Shown piece by piece: positions 4,472 through 24,334 of a stretch of 24,962 bases of DNA (its first letter is position 1; each line of letters starts with the position of its first letter). Source of the DNA: a virus; IMG/VR virus record IMGVR_UViG_3300032287_001178, positions 1 through 24,962 of that record; one strand, written 5' to 3'. The translations under genes and the position numbers were made by a program. The notes below the pieces were generated by a model. The model saw only the letters and a program-made list of their open reading frames with translations, made no database searches and was not told the DNA's origin.

Positions 4472-5166
4472 TGTACGATATCATTTTTATCAGTTATAAC
4501 GAACCAAATGCAGATGCTAACTTTGAAAAGTTAAAAGCAAGATTTCCTTACGCACATAGAGTCCACGGAATCAAAGGTATACATCAAGCACACATTGCTG
4601 CTGCCAAAAAGGCATTTACAAAAATGTTTTGGGTAGTAGATGCTGACGCCGAAATATTAGACACATTTAATTTTGATCATGAAGTTAGCAAATATGATCT
4701 GGAATGTGTACATGTATGGCGAAGTCGTAATCCTATTAATAATTTAGAATATGGTTATGGCGGAGTTAAGTTGTTACCTAAGAGGTTAACTCAGAATATG
4801 GACACGTCAAAGCCAGATATGACTACTAGTATTAGTTCATTGTTTAAGGCAATGCCAGAAGTTTCAAACATTACAGCATTCAACACAGATCCATTTAATA
4901 CGTGGAAATCAGCATTTAGAGAATGTTGCAAGTTGGCAAGTAAAACTATTGATCGTCAAGACGATATAGAAACACAACAACGATTAGATGTATGGTGTAC
5001 ATTAAATGAATCGGTGCCGTATGGTGCTCATGCCTACCTAGGGGCAATTGCAGGAAAATATTTTGGTTTATTTTGGCAAAATGCACCTAGCGAGTTATTA
5101 AAGATAAACGACTTTGATTGGTTAAAAGAACAATATGAAATGTCAAAGGATAAACTAAATGGATGA
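4471..5166 (+). CDS. GT2-like (GT-A fold) glycosyltransferase, shorter pair member 2
   Basis: 231 residues. YDIIFISYNEPNAD (2-15), RVHGIKGIHQAHIAAAKK (30-47) and FWVVDADAEI (53-62; DXD at D57/D59) match the previous gene almost position for position. LEYGYGGVKLLPKR matches its acceptor strand. It is about 67 residues shorter. The segment FNTWKSAFRECCKLASKT corresponds to FQAWRAGFREGVKMTLKD upstream. It starts at TAATG, one base overlapping the preceding stop, with no clear ribosome binding site, so it probably depends on coupling. A tandem duplication followed by divergence is the simplest explanation. Confidence 0.68.
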   Translation: MYDIIFISYNEPNADANFEKLKARFPYAHRVHGIKGIHQAHIAAAKKAFTKMFWVVDADAEILDTFNFDHEVSKYDLECVHVWRSRNPINNLEYGYGGVKLLPKRLTQNMDTSKPDMTTSISSLFKAMPEVSNITAFNTDPFNTWKSAFRECCKLASKTIDRQDDIETQQRLDVWCTLNESVPYGAHAYLGAIAGKYFGLFWQNAPSELLKINDFDWLKEQYEMSKDKLNG

Positions 5167-6523
5167 TAAGGTAAGGATTAAGAAATTCATTCCTATAATG
5201 AATGAAATCTCTCCTACGTTTTGTCTCGCCAAGTGGCACCACACCACTATATATTTAGGCACAGGTGAAACACACAGTTGTTATCATCCAGCGCCTCATA
5301 AGATTCCCTTAGAAGAAATTGTCATAGACCCAAGCGCACTACATAATACCAAAGAAAAAATCAGCCAACGTGCAGAAATGATGGCAGGTGAAAAACCTGC
5401 AGGCTGTAATTATTGTTGGAACATCGAAGCATTAGGTGAAGATTTTATTTCAGATCGACATGAACGCAATGCCAGCATCTTCACAGAACAACGTCTAGGA
5501 GCTATCAAGGCCGACCCATTAGCTCCTGTCAATCCTCAATATATCGAAGTAAGTTTTGGTAACGAATGTAATTTTAAATGTGGATATTGTCACCCAAAAC
5601 ATAGCAGTGCTTACTACAAAGAAATAAAAGATTTTGGTCCGTATTCGATGGTTAAAAATCATCGTAACGATATTGATTGGTTTGAAATATTTGAAGAAGA
5701 AACTAATCCTTATGTAGAAGCGTGGTGGCGTTGGTGGCCTGAAGTTCGCAAAACATTAACCATACTTCGTATCACAGGTGGCGAACCATTGTTACAATCT
5801 AGTACATGGAAACTGTTAGACGACTTAGTAGTAAATCCGTTACCTAATTTAGAATTAAACATCAACACAAACTTTGGAGTTAAACCTATTTTAATTGATA
5901 GACTTGTAGAAAAAGTAAATGCGTTGATTGCCAACGGATGTATTAAAGATTTTAAAATTTTTACTAGTATGGATACATGGGGTGCACCTGCAGAATATAT
6001 TCGAACAGGTCTAGACTTAACTGTGTGGGAACGCAATTTAGATACATATTTGACTAAAACACAGTTGCCAATTACTTTCATGATTACGTTTAATATCTTA
6101 ACTGTAACAAATTTTCAAAGCCTATTAGAAAAGATCCTAGAATGGCGTATAAAATACAATGGTAATAATCAAAACAAATGGCAGCGTGTGAGATTTGATA
6201 CTCCATTTTTAAAAGAGCCCTTGCAGTACGACATGAATATATTACCTAAAGACGAATTTATGCCTTACATGAAAAGTCATCTAGACTTCATTCTAGCCAA
6301 TTTAGACGATAAAAACCGTAGTAAATTCAACGACTTAGAGTATGCTAAATTTGAAAGAGTTGTAAAATACATGGAATCAGCTATCTATACCCCAGAGAAG
6401 CTAAAAGAAGGCAAACGAGACTTCTTTAATTGGTTTACCGAATATGATCGCAGAAGAGGTACTGATTTTATAAGAACCTTTCCAAAATTAGAAAATTTTT
6501 ATTTTGAGTGTGCGCAAGAATGA
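5159..6523 (+). CDS. Radical SAM enzyme with N-terminal twitch/SPASM-like domain
   Basis: 454 residues. The radical-SAM cluster motif CNFKCGYC (C137, C141, C144) binds the catalytic 4Fe-4S cluster, and TGGEPLL (206-212) is the family's SAM-binding GGE motif. Ahead of this, residues 20-90 carry FCLAKW, a Cys at 41 and GCNYCW (C83, C86), with the spacing style of a SPASM/twitch auxiliary-cluster domain. That domain is normally C-terminal. NCBI has a family with the N-terminal arrangement (N_Twi_rSAM), known mainly from phages and bacteria, whose function is unclear. The start is supported by AAGGA eight bases upstream; it overlaps the previous gene by 8 bases. Neighbouring transferases suggest action on a sugar or on a glycosylated peptide, but this is inference. 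Confidence 0.85.
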   Translation: MDDKVRIKKFIPIMNEISPTFCLAKWHHTTIYLGTGETHSCYHPAPHKIPLEEIVIDPSALHNTKEKISQRAEMMAGEKPAGCNYCWNIEALGEDFISDRHERNASIFTEQRLGAIKADPLAPVNPQYIEVSFGNECNFKCGYCHPKHSSAYYKEIKDFGPYSMVKNHRNDIDWFEIFEEETNPYVEAWWRWWPEVRKTLTILRITGGEPLLQSSTWKLLDDLVVNPLPNLELNINTNFGVKPILIDRLVEKVNALIANGCIKDFKIFTSMDTWGAPAEYIRTGLDLTVWERNLDTYLTKTQLPITFMITFNILTVTNFQSLLEKILEWRIKYNGNNQNKWQRVRFDTPFLKEPLQYDMNILPKDEFMPYMKSHLDFILANLDDKNRSKFNDLEYAKFERVVKYMESAIYTPEKLKEGKRDFFNWFTEYDRRRGTDFIRTFPKLENFYFECAQE

Positions 6524-11047: not shown

Positions 11048-11510
11048 TACTTAGTACCTGTTTCATTTCAATTTCTGTTTTAAACGGGCCTTTGTATTCG
11101 TATCTCTGTAAAGTGATTAACTTAGGACAAAAAGATTTAACCCAACCCTTTTCAAATCGGATAACATAGTAACCTGCACAATATAAACTTTTTGAATCTC
11201 CACTCTTTGTAAACAGTGGTAATTTTCTCTGTATGTCAAACATTGCATTGTGAGGTTCGACGCTGGTTGAATAACCATGTACTTCATTCGGTAATGCATT
11301 GTTAGCTTCTTTAACAATCTTCGCAATAAAAAAGTCCTTGCCAAATTTATCAGTTAGGCTTTTTTTAGTATCAAATATTTTAATACCTTCTTCGTTACTT
11401 AATACAAATCGATTGTCTTCGTTCTTTCTTAGAGTCGCAAATTTTTCACCGTCCTTTTCAACGATCCAAAATTTATTTTCGATTATTGGCTTGGCGTGTA
11501 AGTCTGTCAT
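11034..11510 (-). CDS. Conserved phage protein of unknown function
   Basis: 158 residues. It opens with HAKPIIENKFWIVEKDGEKF and ATLRKNEDNRFVLSNEEGIK, strands of a small beta domain. The second half includes SLYCAGYYVIRFEKGWVKSF. I recall the opening in marine T4-like phages, next to the RNase H gene as here. It starts in an ATGA overlap with rnh, so the two are translated together, which hints at a replication-related job without proving one. Confidence 0.77.
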   Translation of the reverse strand: MTDLHAKPIIENKFWIVEKDGEKFATLRKNEDNRFVLSNEEGIKIFDTKKSLTDKFGKDFFIAKIVKEANNALPNEVHGYSTSVEPHNAMFDIQRKLPLFTKSGDSKSLYCAGYYVIRFEKGWVKSFCPKLITLQRYEYKGPFKTEIEMKQVLSNVSK

Positions 11511-12493
11511 AGTATGTACCTCGCATTTAATGGTTCCGCATAACTTTGTGCCTGTTCGGAAATTTTCTTTAGGTCGTATAGATTACAAAATTTCATTAAT
11601 CTTATTCCGACCTGATTGATATTTTTATTTGCCTGTGTCGCAGTAGAAATTGTATCTACAATAATTTGTTTAATGTGTTCGGGCTGATGACTCAAATCAA
11701 TCAGTCGACGATTGCGTTCATAGTCTTCTAACACACGATGCTCTTGACCTTCGTGGTCAGTCCATCTCTGAAGCATGAGATTGTTCCACGCATATCCGCG
11801 GCTTTTACGATCTTCGAACGCTTCAGTAAGACCCACTTTTTTGCTTGTGCCTTTAGTACGCACACCTGGATACGCCGAGAAGACATTATCACTGGTATCA
11901 CCACGCATACATTTCTCAAAGAGTTGCCATTCTGGATTCGGAGCAGCTTTGGGTTCTTGCGTTTTCTTGTCGATGATTGCTTTGCCTTTGTCATCAAAAT
12001 AGCCTTCGTGTGTAATTGTCATTTCCATTACACCATTGTACTGTTTTACATTCGGTGCAATTAACTGTGCAAAATCTGTATCTGTGCTGATAATAACATG
12101 ATTATCGTGTGGGTGTGTTTGTATCCAACCTGCAATAAGATCGTCTGCTTCTAATTGCTCGTTGCGTAACACTGTGCAGTTAGTTTTGTCTGTGATAAAC
12201 TCTTTGAATGTGTCAAATGCTTCCCAAAACACACGATCTTCTTCTGCTTCTTTTTCTGTATGTGCGGCACGAGCGTCTGCTCTATTGCGTTTATAAGGAG
12301 CATAATAGTCCTTTCGCCACGAGCGTCCTTCTAAACAGAAGATAACATGGCTACCATTGAACTGCTGCCATGCTTTACGAATGCTGTTTAGAGTAATATG
12401 AAAGGCCATGCCTAGTTTGATATCAGCGTCACCGTTGATAACGTGTCTAGCACGAAAGAATGTGTTTGCTGTATCAACTAAAATATATGTCAT
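11507..12493 (-). CDS. rnh: T4-type RNase H / 5'-3' flap exonuclease
   Basis: 328 residues, about the length of T4 RNase H. The fold is that of the FEN-1/5'-nuclease family, which removes RNA primers and flaps from lagging-strand DNA. Visible metal-site acids are D7 (ILVDTANTFFRARH), E115-D117-D118 (LEADDLIAGW), D138/D140 (STDTDFAQL) and D199/D202 (MRGDTSDNVFSAYPGV). The last is followed by the helix-three-turn-helix region with G-x-x-x-K (GTSKKVGLTEAF). All expected acidic positions are present, so it should be active. It overlaps both neighbours by ATGA. Polymerase-associated exonucleases share the fold, but the stand-alone size and phage context favour RNase H. Confidence 0.88.
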   Translation of the reverse strand: MTYILVDTANTFFRARHVINGDADIKLGMAFHITLNSIRKAWQQFNGSHVIFCLEGRSWRKDYYAPYKRNRADARAAHTEKEAEEDRVFWEAFDTFKEFITDKTNCTVLRNEQLEADDLIAGWIQTHPHDNHVIISTDTDFAQLIAPNVKQYNGVMEMTITHEGYFDDKGKAIIDKKTQEPKAAPNPEWQLFEKCMRGDTSDNVFSAYPGVRTKGTSKKVGLTEAFEDRKSRGYAWNNLMLQRWTDHEGQEHRVLEDYERNRRLIDLSHQPEHIKQIIVDTISTATQANKNINQVGIRLMKFCNLYDLKKISEQAQSYAEPLNARYIL

Positions 12494-12930
12494 TGGTTCT
12501 TTCTTTTAACTTCGTTAATATCAATAATTCCAGTGTTAATTGGCCCACCAAAGTCACCATCGACCACAACATTGGCACAAAGTTCACGGAACCAACGGTC
12601 TACAATTTCTTCATCTTTGTCACCATCTTCACCGTAACCTTCTTGCTTTAATTTTAACACAAACGGTTCATTCCAGTCAAGTTCAAAGAATCCATTTCGA
12701 ATATTGTCTTTGTTTACATGAGTTTCTAAAACACCAACCCAGGGCTCTTTGCGTCTTGTGGCACGTTCTTTTGGTGACAGTTTCGCAAGCTCTTCTTTTT
12801 CTTGAGCAGCTTTGGATGCCTGTTCTGCTGCTTCTAATCTTTTATTAGCTTCTGCTAAATCTTGTTCTGCTTTGGCAATAGACTCTTCTAGTTTGTCTAG
12901 ACCCATTACCTTTTTAATAAATTTTTTCAT
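12490..12930 (-). CDS. Conserved phage protein with N-terminal coiled coil
   Basis: 146 residues from the ATG at 12930, which makes a TAATG overlap with the queE stop and has GGGGAA just upstream. A start at 12942 would add four residues. Residues 10-55 form a charged coiled coil (LEESIAKAEQDLAEANKRLE and on). A conserved globular part follows, with RRKEPWVGVLETHVN, NGFFELDWNEPFVL and VDRWFRELCANVV. I recall this domain as a common unknown of T4-like cyanophages. It is tied to both queE and rnh by overlaps. Confidence 0.8.
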   Translation of the reverse strand: MKKFIKKVMGLDKLEESIAKAEQDLAEANKRLEAAEQASKAAQEKEELAKLSPKERATRRKEPWVGVLETHVNKDNIRNGFFELDWNEPFVLKLKQEGYGEDGDKDEEIVDRWFRELCANVVVDGDFGGPINTGIIDINEVKRKNQ

Positions 12931-13781
12931 TAAGTTCCCCATTCATTTTTAAACAATGGCACTTGCAATCTATCGCTGTAGCGTAATCCATTCTTCATAG
13001 CAAATTCTGCAACACGACGATTATTTAATGCGTAGACTGATTCGACACCGCCCACTGGCATTAGATATATCGGACCAGTAAATCCTTCTCCACGATATAT
13101 GTCTACAGCTTCTAATGCTTCTTCTGCATCATCTTCTGTAGCAACAACAAACTTTAGATATGTGTAACCAATTTCTTCGTACTCACGAACAATATCAGGA
13201 CGAATAGCTTCATCTGGATGTTCTCCCGAGCAACTTAATTTAGCACTTACACTAAATGTAACCTGACGCCACATGTCTTCTGTGTCACGCCAATTTGCAA
13301 GATATTCTTTAAATTCTTCTGTTAGCTTTTGAGTGCCATTTGTTTCAAATGTAATTTCTTTTAAGCCTGCCATTTTAGGATGACTTAACAAGTCTGGATA
13401 AGCACGTTGCCAACCTAGTAATGGCTCACCGCCTGTGATAACTAGATGCTCGTCCTGCCATTCGTTAAATGGAAGGATTTCACAGATACGATCTGCAATA
13501 GCATCTGTTGTAAGCATAGGACTTAGATCTTTAAAACGAGGATCCCAACTAGCGTAGCTATCACAGCCTGTGCTAACAAGTGGAAGTTCTTCATACGACT
13601 TAAACTCTGCAATACGTTGTGCAATTGATTCAACTTCTGCACTTAGTTCGCCTTTAGGCATGCCAAAGCCAGCACACTTAAAGTTACAGCCAAATGTGCG
13701 CAAGAAAACAGAAGGAACACCCATATAGCGTCCTTCACCTTGTATGCTGTAAAACAGCTCTGCAATTTTAATTTTACTCAT
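12930..13781 (-). CDS. queE: QueE-like 7-carboxy-7-deazaguanine synthase (radical SAM)
   Basis: 283 residues. QueE converts 6-carboxytetrahydropterin to 7-carboxy-7-deazaguanine (CDG), the third step of the 7-deazaguanine pathway. The opening FYSIQGEGRYMGVPSVFLRT (10-29) and GCNFKC (31-36) are QueE signatures, and ITGGEPLLGW (115-124) is the SAM-binding motif. The cluster cysteines are unusual: C32 and C36 are present, but the usual third Cys two residues later is absent. The residues aligning with the normal C-D-T-x-Y-x-W appear at TGCDSYASWD (71-80), giving CX3CX36C with C73. An insertion inside the cluster loop explains this. The start lies 6 bases after the upstream stop. FolE and QueD-like genes at 17.7-20.2 kb complete the steps to CDG. 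Confidence 0.85.
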   Translation of the reverse strand: MSKIKIAELFYSIQGEGRYMGVPSVFLRTFGCNFKCAGFGMPKGELSAEVESIAQRIAEFKSYEELPLVSTGCDSYASWDPRFKDLSPMLTTDAIADRICEILPFNEWQDEHLVITGGEPLLGWQRAYPDLLSHPKMAGLKEITFETNGTQKLTEEFKEYLANWRDTEDMWRQVTFSVSAKLSCSGEHPDEAIRPDIVREYEEIGYTYLKFVVATEDDAEEALEAVDIYRGEGFTGPIYLMPVGGVESVYALNNRRVAEFAMKNGLRYSDRLQVPLFKNEWGT

Positions 13782-14382: not shown

Positions 14383-15203
14383 TAAATAGTCCTTAACCAA
14401 GGAATAAACTGAGTAGCAATTAAATGATGATATGCTTTATCATAGTGTTCGTTATCGGGTAAAAGATATTTAGAATGATCAATCATTCTTCCTGAGAAAA
14501 ATTTTTCTACAGTCTTTGGTGCTATTTTTGTACATTTTAATTTGCCATAGTATTCAAAGTTACTGGGATATTTTAATCTTTCTGTAAAATGAAAAAGATA
14601 TAACTTAGCACCGTGATCATTACAGATATTATCCCAAGTATATACACAATTTAAAAAATCACGTTTTTCTGTATAGGTATTTAGATCAAAGAATAATTTT
14701 ATTTCCATAAAAGTATTTTTTCTAAGATCAGGATTAATGAGACCTTTTTCTGGAGTAAGTTCAAACATAGGACCTTGTTTGTAATCATCCCAAATAGGTT
14801 TCTGAAACAATTGGATTCTTTCATTGGCCATTGTTGTATCGGCATACAGATGTACCATATCTGTAGACTTAGACTTATCAAACACTGTGAAATTATCTAC
14901 TGCAATTGGTTCATCCAATGCGCCCGGGTCGTATGCTATAGTGAAACGATTCAGTGCAGATAGGCATAAGAAAACTTCGTCAATTTCATTGTATCTCTCA
15001 AACATGGTTTTTAACCAATCAGTGTATACACGATTATTAACGCCAGCCATGGCATAAACAGCCACAGGTTTTTTATTTTCTTTACTATAGATATCACCGT
15101 AATTGTTATCGTTCCAATAGCTATAACTACCTAGTCCGACTTTGCCAGGAACTGCTACATAACCACAGGTATGACTATCTCCGATAAACAATGTTCTTGA
15201 CAT
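14382..15203 (-). CDS. SGNH/GDSL-like hydrolase 2
   Basis: 273 residues from the ATG at 15203 (TAATG overlap, AGGAAG five bases upstream; a GTG at 15209 is possible). Block I is FIGDSHTCGY (6-15) with Ser10. Block III is MAGVNNR (52-58) with Asn56 or Asn57. Block V is PDNEHYDKAY (249-258), which fits D-x-x-H with D250 and H253. Unlike the + strand SGNH protein, it keeps the acid. There is no signal peptide. It lies beside a HIT protein and a phosphoribosyltransferase and not beside transferases, so the substrate may differ. Lipase, esterase and deacetylase roles are all possible. Confidence 0.7.
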   Translation of the reverse strand: MSRTLFIGDSHTCGYVAVPGKVGLGSYSYWNDNNYGDIYSKENKKPVAVYAMAGVNNRVYTDWLKTMFERYNEIDEVFLCLSALNRFTIAYDPGALDEPIAVDNFTVFDKSKSTDMVHLYADTTMANERIQLFQKPIWDDYKQGPMFELTPEKGLINPDLRKNTFMEIKLFFDLNTYTEKRDFLNCVYTWDNICNDHGAKLYLFHFTERLKYPSNFEYYGKLKCTKIAPKTVEKFFSGRMIDHSKYLLPDNEHYDKAYHHLIATQFIPWLRTI

Positions 15204-15589
15204 TACCACTTCCTATAATTGCCACGTTCTGGAATAACGTGTCTTACGCCGCCTGTGGGATCTTCCATATCACCTTTGCGTCTAGGAATCAAATGAACAT
15301 GCGGCCAACCAACTGTTTGTCCAGCAGTAGCACCATAATTAAATCCTACATTAAAGCCGTCACACTCTCCAGATTCTACCATACGCATACCATCTCTTAC
15401 AGCATCTTCGAATGCATCCATAAGAACATGTAAGGTATTATATTTAGGCACAAATAACAAGTGACCTGGAGTTACAGGATATTTGTCTTTGAATACCTTT
15501 ACGTGAAAATCTTCTTCTAAAAGATCATCCCACGGTGCTGTTGAATCTTCGATACAAGGAGGTTGACCCTCCATAACTATTTCTCTCAT
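15203..15589 (-). CDS. HIT-family nucleotide hydrolase/transferase
   Basis: 128 residues, normal for HIT proteins, which cleave nucleotide phosphoanhydride or phosphoramidate bonds (Ap4A, AMP-linked molecules). Residues 37-50 (YPVTPGHLLFVPKY) are the conserved strand pair, and GQTVGWPHVHLIPRRKGD (90-107) is the HIT loop. In the usual H-x-H-x-H triad the first His is Trp95, while H97 and the nucleophile-position H99 remain. GGVRHVIPERGNY at the end is Fhit-like. The start is in an ATGA overlap. It probably acts on nucleotides, alongside the phosphoribosyltransferase two genes upstream. Confidence 0.82.
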   Translation of the reverse strand: MREIVMEGQPPCIEDSTAPWDDLLEEDFHVKVFKDKYPVTPGHLLFVPKYNTLHVLMDAFEDAVRDGMRMVESGECDGFNVGFNYGATAGQTVGWPHVHLIPRRKGDMEDPTGGVRHVIPERGNYRKW

Positions 15590-15813
15590 CTTTTATATTC
15601 CTTTCTTTCTGAAGGAAGCGCATCTTCTCGAATGACAAATTCGCGTCCACCTAAGCTGCCAACAAATGCTCTTGTACGTTCCATATAAGCTAAACGCATC
15701 TTGATTGTTTGAAATGCAACTTCTAAAAATGCTTTAGGCTTATAACCTAGAACATGCATATCAAAGTCTTTGCCTGCATCTGTACAGTGTACTTTTATTT
15801 TTGAATCAATCAT
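15586..15813 (-). CDS. Small conserved phage protein between HIT and phosphoribosyltransferase genes
   Basis: 75 residues, basic. KIKVHCTDAGKDFDMHVLGY, then a helix (KAFLEVAFQTIKMRLAYMER) and FVGSLGGREFVIRED. No known family is recognised, though similar small proteins occur in marine phages. ATGA overlaps on both sides tie it tightly to its neighbours. Confidence 0.74.
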   Translation of the reverse strand: MIDSKIKVHCTDAGKDFDMHVLGYKPKAFLEVAFQTIKMRLAYMERTRAFVGSLGGREFVIREDALPSERKEYKR

Positions 15814-16397
15814 TTAGTCCACCAATCTTCCCAAGGGAAATCTACCCATACATCATTTTCTGCTTTATTGATTTCCCTGCCAACATAATCCATTTTAACA
15901 TCGCATTTACTAGCGAGGTTATCGATTAGAACTGCAAATCGAACATTGCTGTTCCATACCTCTTCCCAGGCAGGATCATCTGGAAAGCAACCACTAGGCC
16001 AATCTTTCATAATCCAATTAATAGTTGCCCCAGTGTCATTAATGTCGTCTACTATGAGAATATTTTTGAAATTGGCTCCTTCTTCTAGTAAACTGCTGGC
16101 AGCATCTAAAATAGCACCGATGTCATTCTCGTCGTCTACAAATCTTTCATTGGTACGAGGTCCTAGAGCATCTTCTGCCATCCATAAATTGCTTTCAGAT
16201 TCCAAACCATCACGCAGTTGTACTTTTAAAGTTTCGCAGGGAATATTAAAATAATGACTGATCATTACAGCAGGGGTCAAACCTCCACGAGTAAGTCCTA
16301 CAACATAATCTGGCTTCCAACCGCTGATAATAATGTCTCGACAGATTTTACTAACTAATCCGTTAAGCTCTGTTTGATTGATTATGAGCTTGTTCAT
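15810..16397 (-). CDS. Type I phosphoribosyltransferase
   Basis: 195 residues. The PRPP-binding signature NILIVDDINDTGATINW (112-128) has the adjacent Asp pair and T-G-A-T loop of the type I family. VGLTRGGLTPAVM (33-45) carries the R-G-G pyrophosphate loop. GWKPDYVVG and the size resemble xanthine-guanine or hypoxanthine transferases, so salvage of a purine base is likely. In this genome it could also supply or recycle guanine released by the transglycosylase; that is inference. AGGAGAG lies four bases before the ATG. The start overlaps the cupin gene by an unusually long 35 bases. Confidence 0.85.
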   Translation of the reverse strand: MNKLIINQTELNGLVSKICRDIIISGWKPDYVVGLTRGGLTPAVMISHYFNIPCETLKVQLRDGLESESNLWMAEDALGPRTNERFVDDENDIGAILDAASSLLEEGANFKNILIVDDINDTGATINWIMKDWPSGCFPDDPAWEEVWNSNVRFAVLIDNLASKCDVKMDYVGREINKAENDVWVDFPWEDWWTK

Positions 16398-16839
16398 ATC
16401 TCTCCTTTAGATACTGTTCATTTTGTATCCATTTATTGTTAACTAAAAATCCCCAATCACGTTTGTGAGGTCCTGGCATAAACAAAGTCCATGCAGTTAC
16501 ACCTGGCTTTAATTCAATACGGTGATAACTGTTAGGAGTACAAATGCGGAAATGGCCGGGTCCACGCCATTTACGAATCTCGCAATTTTTTGTACCATCG
16601 GAATTAAATTGTGGAATCCATTCATAATAACCACCTCGTAAAATTAATGTAGCATAGGGCCAGGGATGATCGTGAACATCATCTGGATCACCTTTTAAGA
16701 ATTTGTGCAAGAACACATTAAAGGGAAAACGCTTTCTATCTTTTAAAAACAGATAGTAGCGTTCTAGATAAGGTTCATTATGTATGCGATCAAAGATGAT
16801 TCGCTTACGTCCTAATTTTTCTAACAGTTTAAGGAACAT
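16363..16839 (-). CDS. Cupin-fold protein
   Basis: 158 residues. VHDHPWPYATLILRGGYYEW (55-74) is the first cupin motif, with metal ligands H56, H58 and E73. NSYHRIEL (103-110), with H106, is the second. A single-domain cupin with a full 3-His/1-Glu set could bind iron or another metal and act as a dioxygenase, isomerase or nucleotide-sugar epimerase. I cannot choose among these. It overlaps the downstream phosphoribosyltransferase gene by 35 bases and the upstream glycosylase gene by 11. The start has AAGAGA upstream. Confidence 0.75.
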   Translation of the reverse strand: MFLKLLEKLGRKRIIFDRIHNEPYLERYYLFLKDRKRFPFNVFLHKFLKGDPDDVHDHPWPYATLILRGGYYEWIPQFNSDGTKNCEIRKWRGPGHFRICTPNSYHRIELKPGVTAWTLFMPGPHKRDWGFLVNNKWIQNEQYLKERYEQAHNQSNRA

Positions 16840-17239
16840 TAAAAATCTCTTCTTCCAAGTAACGTTTTAGTTCTTTATCTGTAGGCTCTACAGAAAAATT
16901 ATTTTTAAAGAAAATTTCATAGCTATCGCTGCCATATTTTCCTATCCCATATAACATTGTAGCATCATTTCCGTCCCAAGTCAAGTAGTCTTGGCTCATT
17001 CTAATCAAACGATTATAACGAACATTTACCATACCCAAAGGTTGAATTATACTTTTGACAAATTCTTCGTCTGCGTGTAACAGTGACAGTGCTGTAGGAA
17101 ACCAATATAGGAATTCTGGCAACGTAGTCTTTACAGCTTTACGGCCAGTTTGGTTAAGCATAATAACGCCAACAAAATGTTGCCAAGCATCATCTACTTG
17201 TTGTTGCACCATTAAATCATCACGCAGAGGTTTAATCAT
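16829..17239 (-). CDS. MBD4-like HhH-GPD DNA glycosylase
   Basis: 136 residues from the ATG at 17239 (ATGA overlap; a TTG at 17260 would add seven). It closely follows the catalytic domain of eukaryotic MBD4, a thymine/uracil glycosylase that acts on G mismatches. AWQHFVGVIMLNQTGRKAV (18-36) matches the family's start, IIQPLGMVNVRYNRLIRMS (64-82) the middle, and LYGIGKYGSDSYEIFF (96-111) the helix-hairpin-helix. VEPTDKELKRY (117-127) matches the segment that holds MBD4's catalytic Asp, here D121. No 4Fe-4S cysteine loop is present, as in MBD4 and unlike endonuclease III. It should remove a damaged or mismatched base from DNA. Its target in a phage with modified guanine is open. Confidence 0.82.
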   Translation of the reverse strand: MIKPLRDDLMVQQQVDDAWQHFVGVIMLNQTGRKAVKTTLPEFLYWFPTALSLLHADEEFVKSIIQPLGMVNVRYNRLIRMSQDYLTWDGNDATMLYGIGKYGSDSYEIFFKNNFSVEPTDKELKRYLEEEIFNVP

Positions 17240-17454
17240 TCTACAGCTTCTCCAAACCAATCGTCGACTTGGCGTTCTGCTTCTTCTTGTGTCATTGCAT
17301 GAACAAAGATTCTTGCAGGTTGTCCAACAGTGTGTTGTATATTAAATTTTACAACACCTGCAGGAATTAAACCCCAATCGCGCTCTACAACAAACTCTTG
17401 TAGATTTTTAGCACGATATATTAGATTATCTGTGAGATCCTTTGCGGTATTCAT
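17236..17454 (-). CDS. Small conserved phage protein
   Basis: 72 residues from the ATG at 17454 (ATGA overlap, GGGAG six bases upstream). It is an alpha-beta domain: TDNLIYRAKNLQEFVVERDW, PAGVVKFNIQHTV, ARIFVHAMTQEEAERQVDDW. No family is recognised. It overlaps the glycosylase gene downstream by ATGA, so the two are translated together. Confidence 0.72.
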   Translation of the reverse strand: MNTAKDLTDNLIYRAKNLQEFVVERDWGLIPAGVVKFNIQHTVGQPARIFVHAMTQEEAERQVDDWFGEAVE

Positions 17455-17651
17455 TCTGATCTCCCACTGGTACAACTATCGTTCCAAGTTTCTTGAGCAT
17501 GTTTTCTATATTCATTTAAATCCCATTCCGCCTGCTTGGCTTGATACTGCTCTTCGGATAGCCCATGCCACCCGATACAATCACCTGTAGGACTACGACC
17601 ACAACCGCATGAGCCTAATTTTTTTCCTTCTTCTGGTACTCTTACCTGCAT
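17451..17651 (-). CDS. Small CDGSH-like cysteine protein
   Basis: 66 residues. SCGCGRSPTGDCIGWHGLSE (14-33) has the pattern C-x-C-x2-S-x4-C-x-G-x-H. The 2Fe-2S CDGSH motif is C-x-C-x2-(S/T)-x3-P-x-C-D-G-x-H, so all three Cys and the His are present with one residue fewer and with Ile in place of Asp. The remainder is a charged helix. It may bind a 2Fe-2S cluster, or zinc. AAGGAGAT is a strong ribosome binding site. It directly follows folE and precedes the glycosylase pair. Confidence 0.72.
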   Translation of the reverse strand: MQVRVPEEGKKLGSCGCGRSPTGDCIGWHGLSEEQYQAKQAEWDLNEYRKHAQETWNDSCTSGRSE

Positions 17652-17660
17652 GATATCTCC

Positions 17661-18425
17661 TTATCTTGGCGCAAACTCTTGTTGCATTTTAATGTTGTCA
17701 AAGAACTCTTTCTTTGTACCCGGATCATCTTTAAATGCACCTTTAAGCACAGTAGTCTGCGTCAATGAACTATGTGCCATAATACCTCGATTCTCGCAAC
17801 AACCATGTGTTGCTTGAATATACACACCTAAGTCTTGTGCGCCTGTGGCTTTTTGGATTTCCCTAGCAATGTCATTGCAAAGTTCCTCCTGGAGAGTACC
17901 TCGACGGGCACACCACTGAGCGATCCTTGTATACTTGCTAAGTCCGATGAGTTTCTGAGCTGCAATAAGACCAATATAAGCAACGCCAACAACGGGTTGG
18001 TGATGATGGCTACACATACTGCGAAGCTCACTACGCACAACCAACATACCTTCGTAACGGTCCGCCGAATCATTTGGAAACGCTGTAGCGTCTGGTGCTG
18101 GGACATATCTGCCCTCCATAATTTCATTAAAATACATTTTAGCAAGACGTTTTGCTGTGCCACGACTGTTAGGATCGTTTTCACGATCAATCAACAGCGT
18201 GTCTAATACTAGTTCAAATGCTTCAGTGGCTTCTTTAATTAGGATTTCCTTATTTGCCTCACTAACATATTCGCTAATGTTATCTCCGGCCCAAAAGCGT
18301 TTCTTGTCACGTTTCATCTTAAAGCGAATAGCGTCTGCAAGATTACATTCTTCGTAGCCTTTGTCGCTCATATCGTCTGCACCTTTAAGTGCGCTTTGTA
18401 AATCTTCTGATGTAAATGTTGTCAA
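17661..18425 (-). CDS. folE: GTP cyclohydrolase I
   Basis: 254 residues. FolE converts GTP to 7,8-dihydroneopterin triphosphate, the first step of both folate and 7-deazaguanine synthesis. SMCSHHHQPVVGVAYIG (136-152) and THGCCENRGI (206-215) carry the zinc ligands C138, H141 and C209 and the catalytic His region. GLSKYTRIAQWCARR (161-175) is the conserved dimer-contact strand. The N-terminus is extended by about 25-30 residues relative to bacterial FolE. The chosen TTG start has GGAG seven bases upstream; an ATG at 18371 is a fallback. With queE and a queD-like gene in the window, the job is most likely DNA base modification rather than folate supply. Confidence 0.93.
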   Translation of the reverse strand: MTTFTSEDLQSALKGADDMSDKGYEECNLADAIRFKMKRDKKRFWAGDNISEYVSEANKEILIKEATEAFELVLDTLLIDRENDPNSRGTAKRLAKMYFNEIMEGRYVPAPDATAFPNDSADRYEGMLVVRSELRSMCSHHHQPVVGVAYIGLIAAQKLIGLSKYTRIAQWCARRGTLQEELCNDIAREIQKATGAQDLGVYIQATHGCCENRGIMAHSSLTQTTVLKGAFKDDPGTKKEFFDNIKMQQEFAPR

Positions 18426-22723: not shown

Positions 22724-24334
22724 CTATTCTGCGACTAAACTATTCAACTCGTCGTCGTCTGGGTTTGAAAAATCAATTTCGTTTGACTTTTTGCCATCTT
22801 CAAAATCAAATAAATTACCAAATGTATTTGCTGCAGGACCACCCTGTAGTCGAGCACCTTCCAATGATTTCAAGAACTGCCCAGCAGTTTCAATCATGTC
22901 AAATGCTTCTGCTTTAGTTTTAGTATTAAATAATTCTTCAACAAATGTAGAAAAATATAGAATTTTGTTTGGAACCCAATCACTAAATTCAATTTCTTTC
23001 TTACCTTCAACGCTTTTTGTTCTCCAGTCTGGTTTGAATCTAGCACATTCAATGTCCATTAACTGTTGAGCACGTTGTACTGCCTTAATATGACATTCAA
23101 CATTGTGCCCCATCATCAGTGCATAACTGAAACTATCCCAACTAGTTTTATTTGGAATCTTTCCTAGTTTATTAAGTTTTGGAACTGTATGATAGTGTTC
23201 TGGATTTAAGTGATTAAATTTAACATCGCCGAGTTCTTCGTCGGTTTTACGAACACCGTAATCATAATATGCAATGTCACCCATAGTTAAACGACTTGCA
23301 AATTCACTTTCAAACGGAAACGGAATGTCATGACGTCCTGAAAGACCTTTATTATCTGGAGCCTTGTCCATAATAACACTCCAACGTTTGTTGGTATGTT
23401 GTGCGTTTGTGTAAACAAGACCGTGAGCAGTAGCAATAAACGGTGATGCACAGTCAAAACTAATTGTAAGTTCTGTATTAATATGTTTGCGAATCTGACG
23501 TTGTATTTGTGTTAGGTAACATGACCAGTCGAGTTGTGCTGTACCCAAGAAGTGGATCCAGTTCTTACCTGTAAGCATGCCTTCATCACGCATTGTCATT
23601 AGACGCTTGAGCGTAATGTCCATCTTACACATATTAGCACCACCAAATGCCCACCCTTCTGCTTCTTTGCCAGCGTATGGGCCTTTGGGATCACTAAACT
23701 CTTTAACACCATTATACCATTTCTCAGCAGTATCCCAGTCTGAACCCTGTAATACATTTAACCACTTAGTCTGTCCTAACCGATTATCTAAGAAATATTT
23801 GTTATTAAAGGCAGTTTTTTCTAAACAATCTTCAAAAGATTTCAAACCTGTCTTTGGACTGTGTATATGATCACAGGCCCAAGTCGGAACGTCCAGCATC
23901 ATAGACCAATCAGCAGTTAATTCTAACCACTCTAAAATCTTTTTGCGAGTTTTGTTGGCTTCTGGACCTTCAAAGTTCAACCAATCAAACTTAAGAACAC
24001 CTTTACCAATCTGGTAGCCACCGGAGTCGCCTAAAATCATCGTCTGTCCACGATCACGTTGTTGGATCATAGACTCTTGTTCCATAGATTTTTCTAAATC
24101 AAGCTGTGCATGACCTGCTGAATACAAAGCATACTTGTAGGTAAAGTATCCTTGATCTGCATTTAAGAAGTTCATACCTTCAATGCCTCGATCAAATCCT
24201 GCAGGAATGCGTTCTTTAGAAACAAATTCTTCTAGTCGTTGTTTTGCTACATAAGTTGAATAAAAAGAACTGATTGCTGGCAGATACACAGCATAGTCCT
24301 TTTGTAATGGTGTTAGGTTAACTGGTTGTTTCAT
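22724..24334 (-). CDS. dpdA: DpdA-like DNA transglycosylase (tRNA-guanine transglycosylase superfamily)
   Basis: 536 residues. ILGDSGGYQIGKG (100-112) carries the D-S-G-G-(F/Y)-Q signature, whose Asp (D103) is the general acid/base of the family. NVLQGSDW (193-200) and GWAFGGANM (227-235) match the substrate-pocket glycine strands. SFDCASPFIATAHG (292-305) matches the F-D-C-x-x-P segment with the nucleophile Asp (D294). The C-x-C-x2-C zinc site of bacterial TGT is not seen. DpdA enzymes exchange guanine in DNA for a 7-deazaguanine. With FolE, QueD-like and QueE in the same operon direction, I assign a DNA-modifying role. A tRNA role is less likely, because the zinc site is absent and length is above that of bacterial TGT (about 375). 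The first 17 bases overlap the previous gene. Confidence 0.83.
   Translation of the reverse strand: MKQPVNLTPLQKDYAVYLPAISSFYSTYVAKQRLEEFVSKERIPAGFDRGIEGMNFLNADQGYFTYKYALYSAGHAQLDLEKSMEQESMIQQRDRGQTMILGDSGGYQIGKGVLKFDWLNFEGPEANKTRKKILEWLELTADWSMMLDVPTWACDHIHSPKTGLKSFEDCLEKTAFNNKYFLDNRLGQTKWLNVLQGSDWDTAEKWYNGVKEFSDPKGPYAGKEAEGWAFGGANMCKMDITLKRLMTMRDEGMLTGKNWIHFLGTAQLDWSCYLTQIQRQIRKHINTELTISFDCASPFIATAHGLVYTNAQHTNKRWSVIMDKAPDNKGLSGRHDIPFPFESEFASRLTMGDIAYYDYGVRKTDEELGDVKFNHLNPEHYHTVPKLNKLGKIPNKTSWDSFSYALMMGHNVECHIKAVQRAQQLMDIECARFKPDWRTKSVEGKKEIEFSDWVPNKILYFSTFVEELFNTKTKAEAFDMIETAGQFLKSLEGARLQGGPAANTFGNLFDFEDGKKSNEIDFSNPDDDELNSLVAE

Follow-up and report, generated by a model that had tools for sequence, protein, structure and literature searches.

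A phage protein of the MBD4 catalytic-domain family, predicted to be a glycosylase that repairs deaminated cytosine in phage DNA

A 24,962-nucleotide stretch of viral DNA (IMG/VR virus record IMGVR_UViG_3300032287_001178, positions 1 to 24,962; hereafter the window) encodes a 136-residue protein that is a member of the MBD4 catalytic-domain family. Judging from its sequence and a structural model, we predict that this protein is a monofunctional phage glycosylase that repairs deaminated cytosine in the phage's own DNA, a reading to which we assign a probability of roughly 0.6. The gene and those neighbors to which we refer below are as follows.

11507..12493, minus strand: 5'-3' exonuclease, T4 RNase H-like (PF02739), a conserved neighbor
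12930..13781, minus strand: QueE-like radical SAM protein, 7-carboxy-7-deazaguanine synthase (PHROG 2076, E 1e-54)
15203..15589, minus strand: HIT-family protein (PF01230), a conserved neighbor
15810..16397, minus strand: phosphoribosyltransferase (PF00156), a conserved neighbor
16363..16839, minus strand: cupin-like protein matching PHROG 4786 'cysteine dioxygenase' (E 1.9e-36), downstream of the glycosylase gene and overlapping it by 11 bases; kept in 77/80 loci
16829..17239, minus strand: MBD4-type HhH-GPD DNA glycosylase, 136 aa (ATG at 17239, TAA at 16829-16831)
17236..17475, minus strand: small ORF of 79 aa, upstream, with an ATGA stop/start overlap with the glycosylase gene; kept in 69/80 loci
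17661..18425, minus strand: FolE, GTP cyclohydrolase I (PF01227, E 2.3e-38)
22724..24334, minus strand: putative DpdA/TGT-like base-exchange enzyme (TGT-like motifs GDSGG and DCASP, found by eye)

The open reading frame that the original prediction had placed at 16829-17239 is real and lies on the minus strand, the plus strand across this interval being full of stops. Its ATG is backed by the N-terminus MIKPLRDDL, which is kept in relatives, and further by the 4-base and 11-base overlaps with the upstream and downstream ORFs. Comparison with relatives gave pS values of 0.59-0.86 and pN values of 0.04-0.12, with a median pN/pS of 0.15 (78 pairs), that is, strong purifying selection; because the synonymous sites are near saturation and the non-synonymous sites are not, we take it to be a functioning gene. 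The scan for close relatives alone detected at least 470 viral loci in IMG/VR, and the carriers of the window's gene type are large aquatic phages.

The assignment to MBD4, also made in the original prediction, was borne out by profile, fold and tree, all of which put the protein closest to MBD4. HhH-GPD was the sole Pfam domain reported (E 1.8e-7, over the cut-off); PF03167 (UDG superfamily) did not match the window protein, for which PHROG and NCBIfam gave no useful assignment. MBD4 was the sole strong match in a single-sequence search of the PDB (E 1e-18), followed by MutY (E 0.18). When a profile of 46 family members was searched against the PDB, MBD4 (6.6e-32, 113 bits) led endonuclease III (4e-13, 52.6 bits) by about 60 bits, followed by MIG (5.5e-12) and MutY (1e-6), and among these four only the MBD4 alignment extended through the catalytic Asp; no other HhH family came closer. 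The AlphaFold2 model of the window protein (mean pLDDT 94.9, pTM 0.90) retrieved MBD4 structures at ranks 1-16 in Foldseek (TM 0.83-0.86), with MutY (TM about 0.67) and MIG (TM 0.76, E 1.3e-3) after them. A maximum-likelihood tree grouped 50 phage proteins with two vertebrate MBD4 proteins in one clade (SH-aLRT 99.6), with MIG, MutY, Nth and bacterial homologs on the other side of the branch. Within this clade, MBD4 branched from among the phage proteins; support for this placement was weak (83) and the alignment columns were few. The 4Fe-4S motif C-x6-C-x2-C-x5-C, found in MIG, Nth and MutY, occurs in no phage member of the family, in agreement with the absence of a 4Fe-4S loop noted earlier. 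The protein is a single domain; a methyl-CpG-binding domain is absent, and so is the C-terminal extension of the Fe-S HhH-GPD enzymes (MutY/Nth/MIG). It could be argued that the protein is instead a member of the MutY/Nth/MIG branch, since its wedge position, like that of MutY, is occupied by Gln, and its best NCBIfam match is mutY (a weak 20.7 bits vs a cut-off of 286.5); given that profile, fold and tree favor MBD4 and that the Fe-S motif is missing, we find this scarcely tenable.

Relatives in cellular genomes were searched for in two phyla with the family profile and among genome contigs with one motif. Across 399 Pseudomonadota and 297 Actinomycetota genomes, all that the profile found, save in the two seed genomes, was partial matches to proteins of greater length. 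A bacterial origin was considered and rejected, as the 398 further Pseudomonadota and 296 further Actinomycetota genomes yielded partial Nth/MutY-like matches only. Seven loci came out of the one-motif scan of genome contigs; every one of them belongs to a metagenome-assembled genome, and some have phage-like neighbors. A plasmid search gave one partial match. In a viral structure library, the only strong match was a granulovirus HhH-GPD protein (BFVD U5KBB0; E 5e-7, TM 0.83), hinting that MBD4-type domains also occur in insect viruses.

Among 48 aligned relatives, N29, G69, Y102, D105, S106, D121, L124 and Y127 are invariant. The proposed catalytic residue D121, in the segment TDKEL, was thus retained in 48/48, and no loss was seen in close relatives. 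In human MBD4, the thymine is read by V448, Q449 and Y540, with L447 and L466 packing on it, D560 activates the water, and recognition of the T:G pair falls to R468; the R468Q substitution abolishes the activity completely or nearly so. The equivalents of D560, Y540, N467 and L466 are D121, Y102, N29 and L28, respectively. Position 30, which we equate with R468 because it is flanked by the invariant N29 and the near-invariant T31, is Q in 32, L in 11, C in 4, M in 1 and R in none of the 48 relatives, the window protein having Q30. The pocket Gln (Q449) aligns exactly in 12 of the 48, which are the divergent members; on the window's branch, a gapless alignment sets V11 opposite Q449. In the predicted models, the helix runs from V11 to Q14 in the window protein and from R15 to V18 in the relative L188, with Gln second in each, and the loop that follows the pocket Gln is one residue shorter in the window protein than in L188. 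The two models favor Q12, rather than V11, as the helical counterpart of Q449. The T/U pocket seems to be retained in the phage enzymes while the finger is gone, so that U/T chemistry is likely and strict T:G specificity is not. The removal of T or U opposite G, as first proposed, stands in part: the base-pocket residues seem to be kept, but the arginine finger needed by human MBD4 is replaced, and because human R468Q loses activity, the window protein may excise T from T:G only weakly.

The absence of a finger that contacts the opposite strand also favors a general uracil-DNA glycosylase, which would remove uracil whatever stands opposite (U:A included) and, together with ThyX and a MazG-like pyrophosphohydrolase, keep the phage DNA free of dUTP-derived uracil. 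A UDG-superfamily gene (PF03167) was found in 0/13 phage records of 58-353 kb, a search that was positive in 13/14 cellular genomes used as control, so that the tested phage genomes have no other UDG, a result that counts for the repair of deaminated cytosine as well. Furthermore, a 281 kb contig of a relative (G001) encodes UvdE, ThyX and a MazG-like protein, the latter two being encoded in G005 as well, and MazG/PRA-PH genes adjoin the glycosylase gene in AXL_1, L073, L181 and L183. However, the characterized members of the MBD4 family act on bases mispaired with G, and the association with dCMP-type enzymes described below points to deaminated cytosine, not to misincorporated dUMP. On balance we consider a general uracil-DNA glycosylase unlikely, and prefer the repair of deaminated cytosine.

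In the window's jumbo-phage clade, the glycosylase gene is accompanied by folE, two small ORFs and genes for the cupin-like protein, phosphoribosyltransferase, HIT protein, QueE and exonuclease, the main neighbors being kept in 68-77 of 80 loci, some of which are too short to show them. Marine relatives (55-60% identical) have an identical gene set around the glycosylase gene in shuffled order. QueD is found in several large contigs, and QueC weakly; QueD lies ~1-5 kb from the glycosylase gene in L064, L131, L190, L194 and L195. The gene at 22724-24334 had no Pfam, PHROG, NCBIfam or PDB match; a marine relative of its product matched a TGT-annotated phage protein at E 0.03, a weak chain. A PDB profile search bearing on the DpdA identity matched no TGT. 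Judging from these genes, modified guanine is plausible in this clade.

Several other features of these phages may be mentioned. The 536-aa DpdA-like family is common to PA5oct, MIJ3, Phosso and Vibrio phage 2.275.O, in all of which it is annotated as hypothetical, and it is possibly a new DpdA subfamily. The contig G001 (L094-L097, L086-L087, L100) has a gene content unusual for a phage, as it also encodes NifU-like and Fe-S biosynthesis proteins, superoxide dismutase and Bax1-I beside UvdE, as well as a malonyl-CoA decarboxylase C-terminal domain, DnaJ, PhoH and glycan synthesis genes. A second radical SAM gene of the window (5159-6523) has several related paralogs in G001/G005, partly in tandem.

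The functional link between the glycosylase and folE or modified guanine, which had been proposed from their close packing, holds as conserved synteny in the window's jumbo-phage clade but is not general. In S-TIM54, AXL_1 and Donnerlittchen, whose genomes are complete, the glycosylase gene is present and QueC, QueD and QueE are absent, which rules out a deazaguanine link as a general rule; PA5oct-type phages encode FolE and the DpdA-like protein without this glycosylase. The association with folE belongs to a single phage clade. We therefore see little to recommend, and rate as quite improbable, an enzyme adapted to 7-deazaguanine, either acting on T/U opposite a preQ0-type guanine or serving as a step in a DpdA-type modification pathway; its place among FolE, QueE, phosphoribosyltransferase, HIT and DpdA-like genes despite the shuffled order, with QueD close by in the five loci, speaks for such an enzyme, but the co-occurrence mostly reflects the shared ancestry of one clade.

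Outside this clade, three other glycosylase lineages have no QueE and carry a thymidylate synthase (TS) homolog with N177D, located within a few kb of the glycosylase gene in two of the three. The Asp at the position of E. coli ThyA N177 is present in AXL_1, Donnerlittchen, S-TIM54, seven Bosavirus-like contigs and L187-L189; no TS homolog was found in the L186 contig or the 33-kb L129 contig, both from non-jumbo glycosylase carriers. N177D converts thymidylate synthase into a dCMP methylase (PMC8670742), and the equivalent Asp179 determines the dCMP specificity of T4 dCMP hydroxymethylase (PMC6400193). In AXL_1 and Donnerlittchen, the glycosylase gene is followed directly by genes for a pyrophosphohydrolase, a TS-like protein and a dCMP deaminase; about 2 kb lie between it and the TS-like gene in L187-L189, and S-TIM54 encodes a ThyX distinct from its TS homolog and, in addition, a C5-methyltransferase. 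Among 50,697 phage records, TS homologs numbered 1,819 with the AXL1 query and 3,867 with the E. coli ThyA query; at such frequencies, the presence of one in all three lineages is hardly a matter of chance, although the independent units here are lineages rather than genomes and the lineages were not picked at random. The glycosylase is optional in Bradleyvirinae, since the dCMP-type operon is present without it in DLP4, AAT-1 and Mallos. One of the lineages with a dCMP-type enzyme takes in relatives of Xp12. According to its authors (PMC9206674), the ENDO3c protein of AXL1 (gp65) is found elsewhere only in Xp12, in which every cytosine is 5-methylcytosine (5mC), and the DNA of AXL1 is refractory to most restriction enzymes that have G/C in their sites. 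Taken together, the phages that carry relatives of the glycosylase probably alter their own cytosines or guanines chemically. Hypermodified thymine in Bosavirus-type phages was also considered and was rejected on account of the dCMP-type Asp at position 177.

Some annotations in these lineages are affected. The genes annotated as 'thymidylate synthase' or 'ThyA' in AXL_1, Donnerlittchen and S-TIM54 (L083:16400-17341, L084:21211-22050 and L238:30398-31240) have Asp at 177 and more likely encode a dCMP methylase or hydroxymethylase, and this applies equally to those of DLP4, AAT-1, Mallos, RcRudolph, RDJL6 and JWT. Outside the main synteny block, a PRA-PH/MazG-like pyrophosphohydrolase gene adjoins the glycosylase gene at L073:5398-5766, L181:10401-11294 and L183:10395-11411, and the gene for a DUF6378 protein does so at L188:10418-10684.

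The phage DNA being probably modified and the host's not, one can conceive of a weapon that acts selectively, damaging host or competitor DNA by base removal. We hold this to be very improbable, because the protein consists of a 136-aa catalytic domain with no recognition or extra domain, like plant MBD4L, and the glycosylase gene stands beside DNA-precursor genes in unrelated phages.

Under the preferred reading, repair of deaminated cytosine, the enzyme would flip from the helix a base presenting O2/N3-H/O4 (uracil, thymine or a 5-substituted uracil), activate a water molecule through D121 and release the base, leaving an abasic site to repair enzymes of the phage or host; deaminated cytosines would thereby be removed from the phage's own DNA. 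Without the arginine finger, the opposite base should be read less strictly than by MBD4, or differently. In the window's clade, a C5-methyltransferase as a source of 5mC was absent from 13 related contigs and a TS-family enzyme was searched for and absent, and because no route to 5mC was found, the likeliest target would be uracil opposite G. In the sister lineages with a dCMP-methylase-type enzyme, the glycosylase would act on the deamination products of 5mC and 5hmC, namely T and 5-hydroxymethyluracil, opposite G, and T:G would be the natural substrate in the Bosavirus-like branch despite Leu at the finger position. The link to cytosine modification is thus, for the window's clade, borrowed from these lineages, whose dCMP-type genes are the stronger functional clue.

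5-Methylcytosine deaminates to thymine, a normal base, and for this reason a genome rich in 5mC needs a mismatch-specific remover of thymine. We know of no description of how 5mC phages such as Xp12 cope with deamination. The replacement of all cytosine by 5mC in Xp12 has been on record since 1968 (cited in PMC8670742). MBD4-type glycosylases encoded inside dCMP-type modification operons make this question directly testable, and the presence of the family in jumbo phages with a deazaguanine pathway raises the question of its repair target there. It is a tentative idea, possible rather than probable, that phages own an MBD4 branch without the finger, hardly present in the cellular bacteria sampled and adapted to deaminated bases in genomes that carry chemical modifications, namely T/hmU in phages with 5-modified cytosine and U/T opposite 7-deazaguanine in jumbo phages. 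If true, this branch would correspond, on the viral side, to the means by which eukaryotes deal with 5mC deamination, and would possibly be the evolutionary source or a relative of MBD4. Natural MBD4-type enzymes without the finger would also allow the prevailing view of how T:G is recognized to be put to the test, and the Leu of the Bosavirus-like branch would be informative in this respect.

The catalytic domain of vertebrate MBD4 (MED1; 4e9e, 4ofa, 6vjw and others) resembles the window protein (TM 0.83-0.86, 32-36% identity over about 135 columns) in the lack of an Fe-S motif, the catalytic Asp, the pocket Tyr, the N467/L466/G507 equivalents and the domain length. The phage protein differs in being phage-encoded, in having no methyl-CpG-binding domain, in the replacement of R468 by Q/L/C/M and probably in the loop after the pocket Gln, which is one residue shorter. 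Plant AtMBD4L, which we liken to it by description, also has the catalytic domain without the MBD, and has been characterized (PMC6728418) as excising T less well than U and 5-substituted U. The thermophilic G:T mismatch glycosylase MIG (1kea) shares the HhH-GPD fold, and its T:G function is a possible analog, but MIG has a 4Fe-4S motif and Arg at the finger and sits outside the clade of phage proteins and MBD4. AXL1 gp65, an 'ENDO3c domain-containing protein', belongs to one family with the window protein (26% identity) and has the invariant motif GxGxYxxDS...D..L..Y in common with it, but differs in its N-terminal extension, Leu at the finger and dCMP-type modification operon. In the available part of PMC9206674, its authors do not name it MBD4-like; they predict D141 to be catalytic and report no canonical endonuclease III active-site motif, which fits an MBD4-type rather than an Nth-type enzyme.
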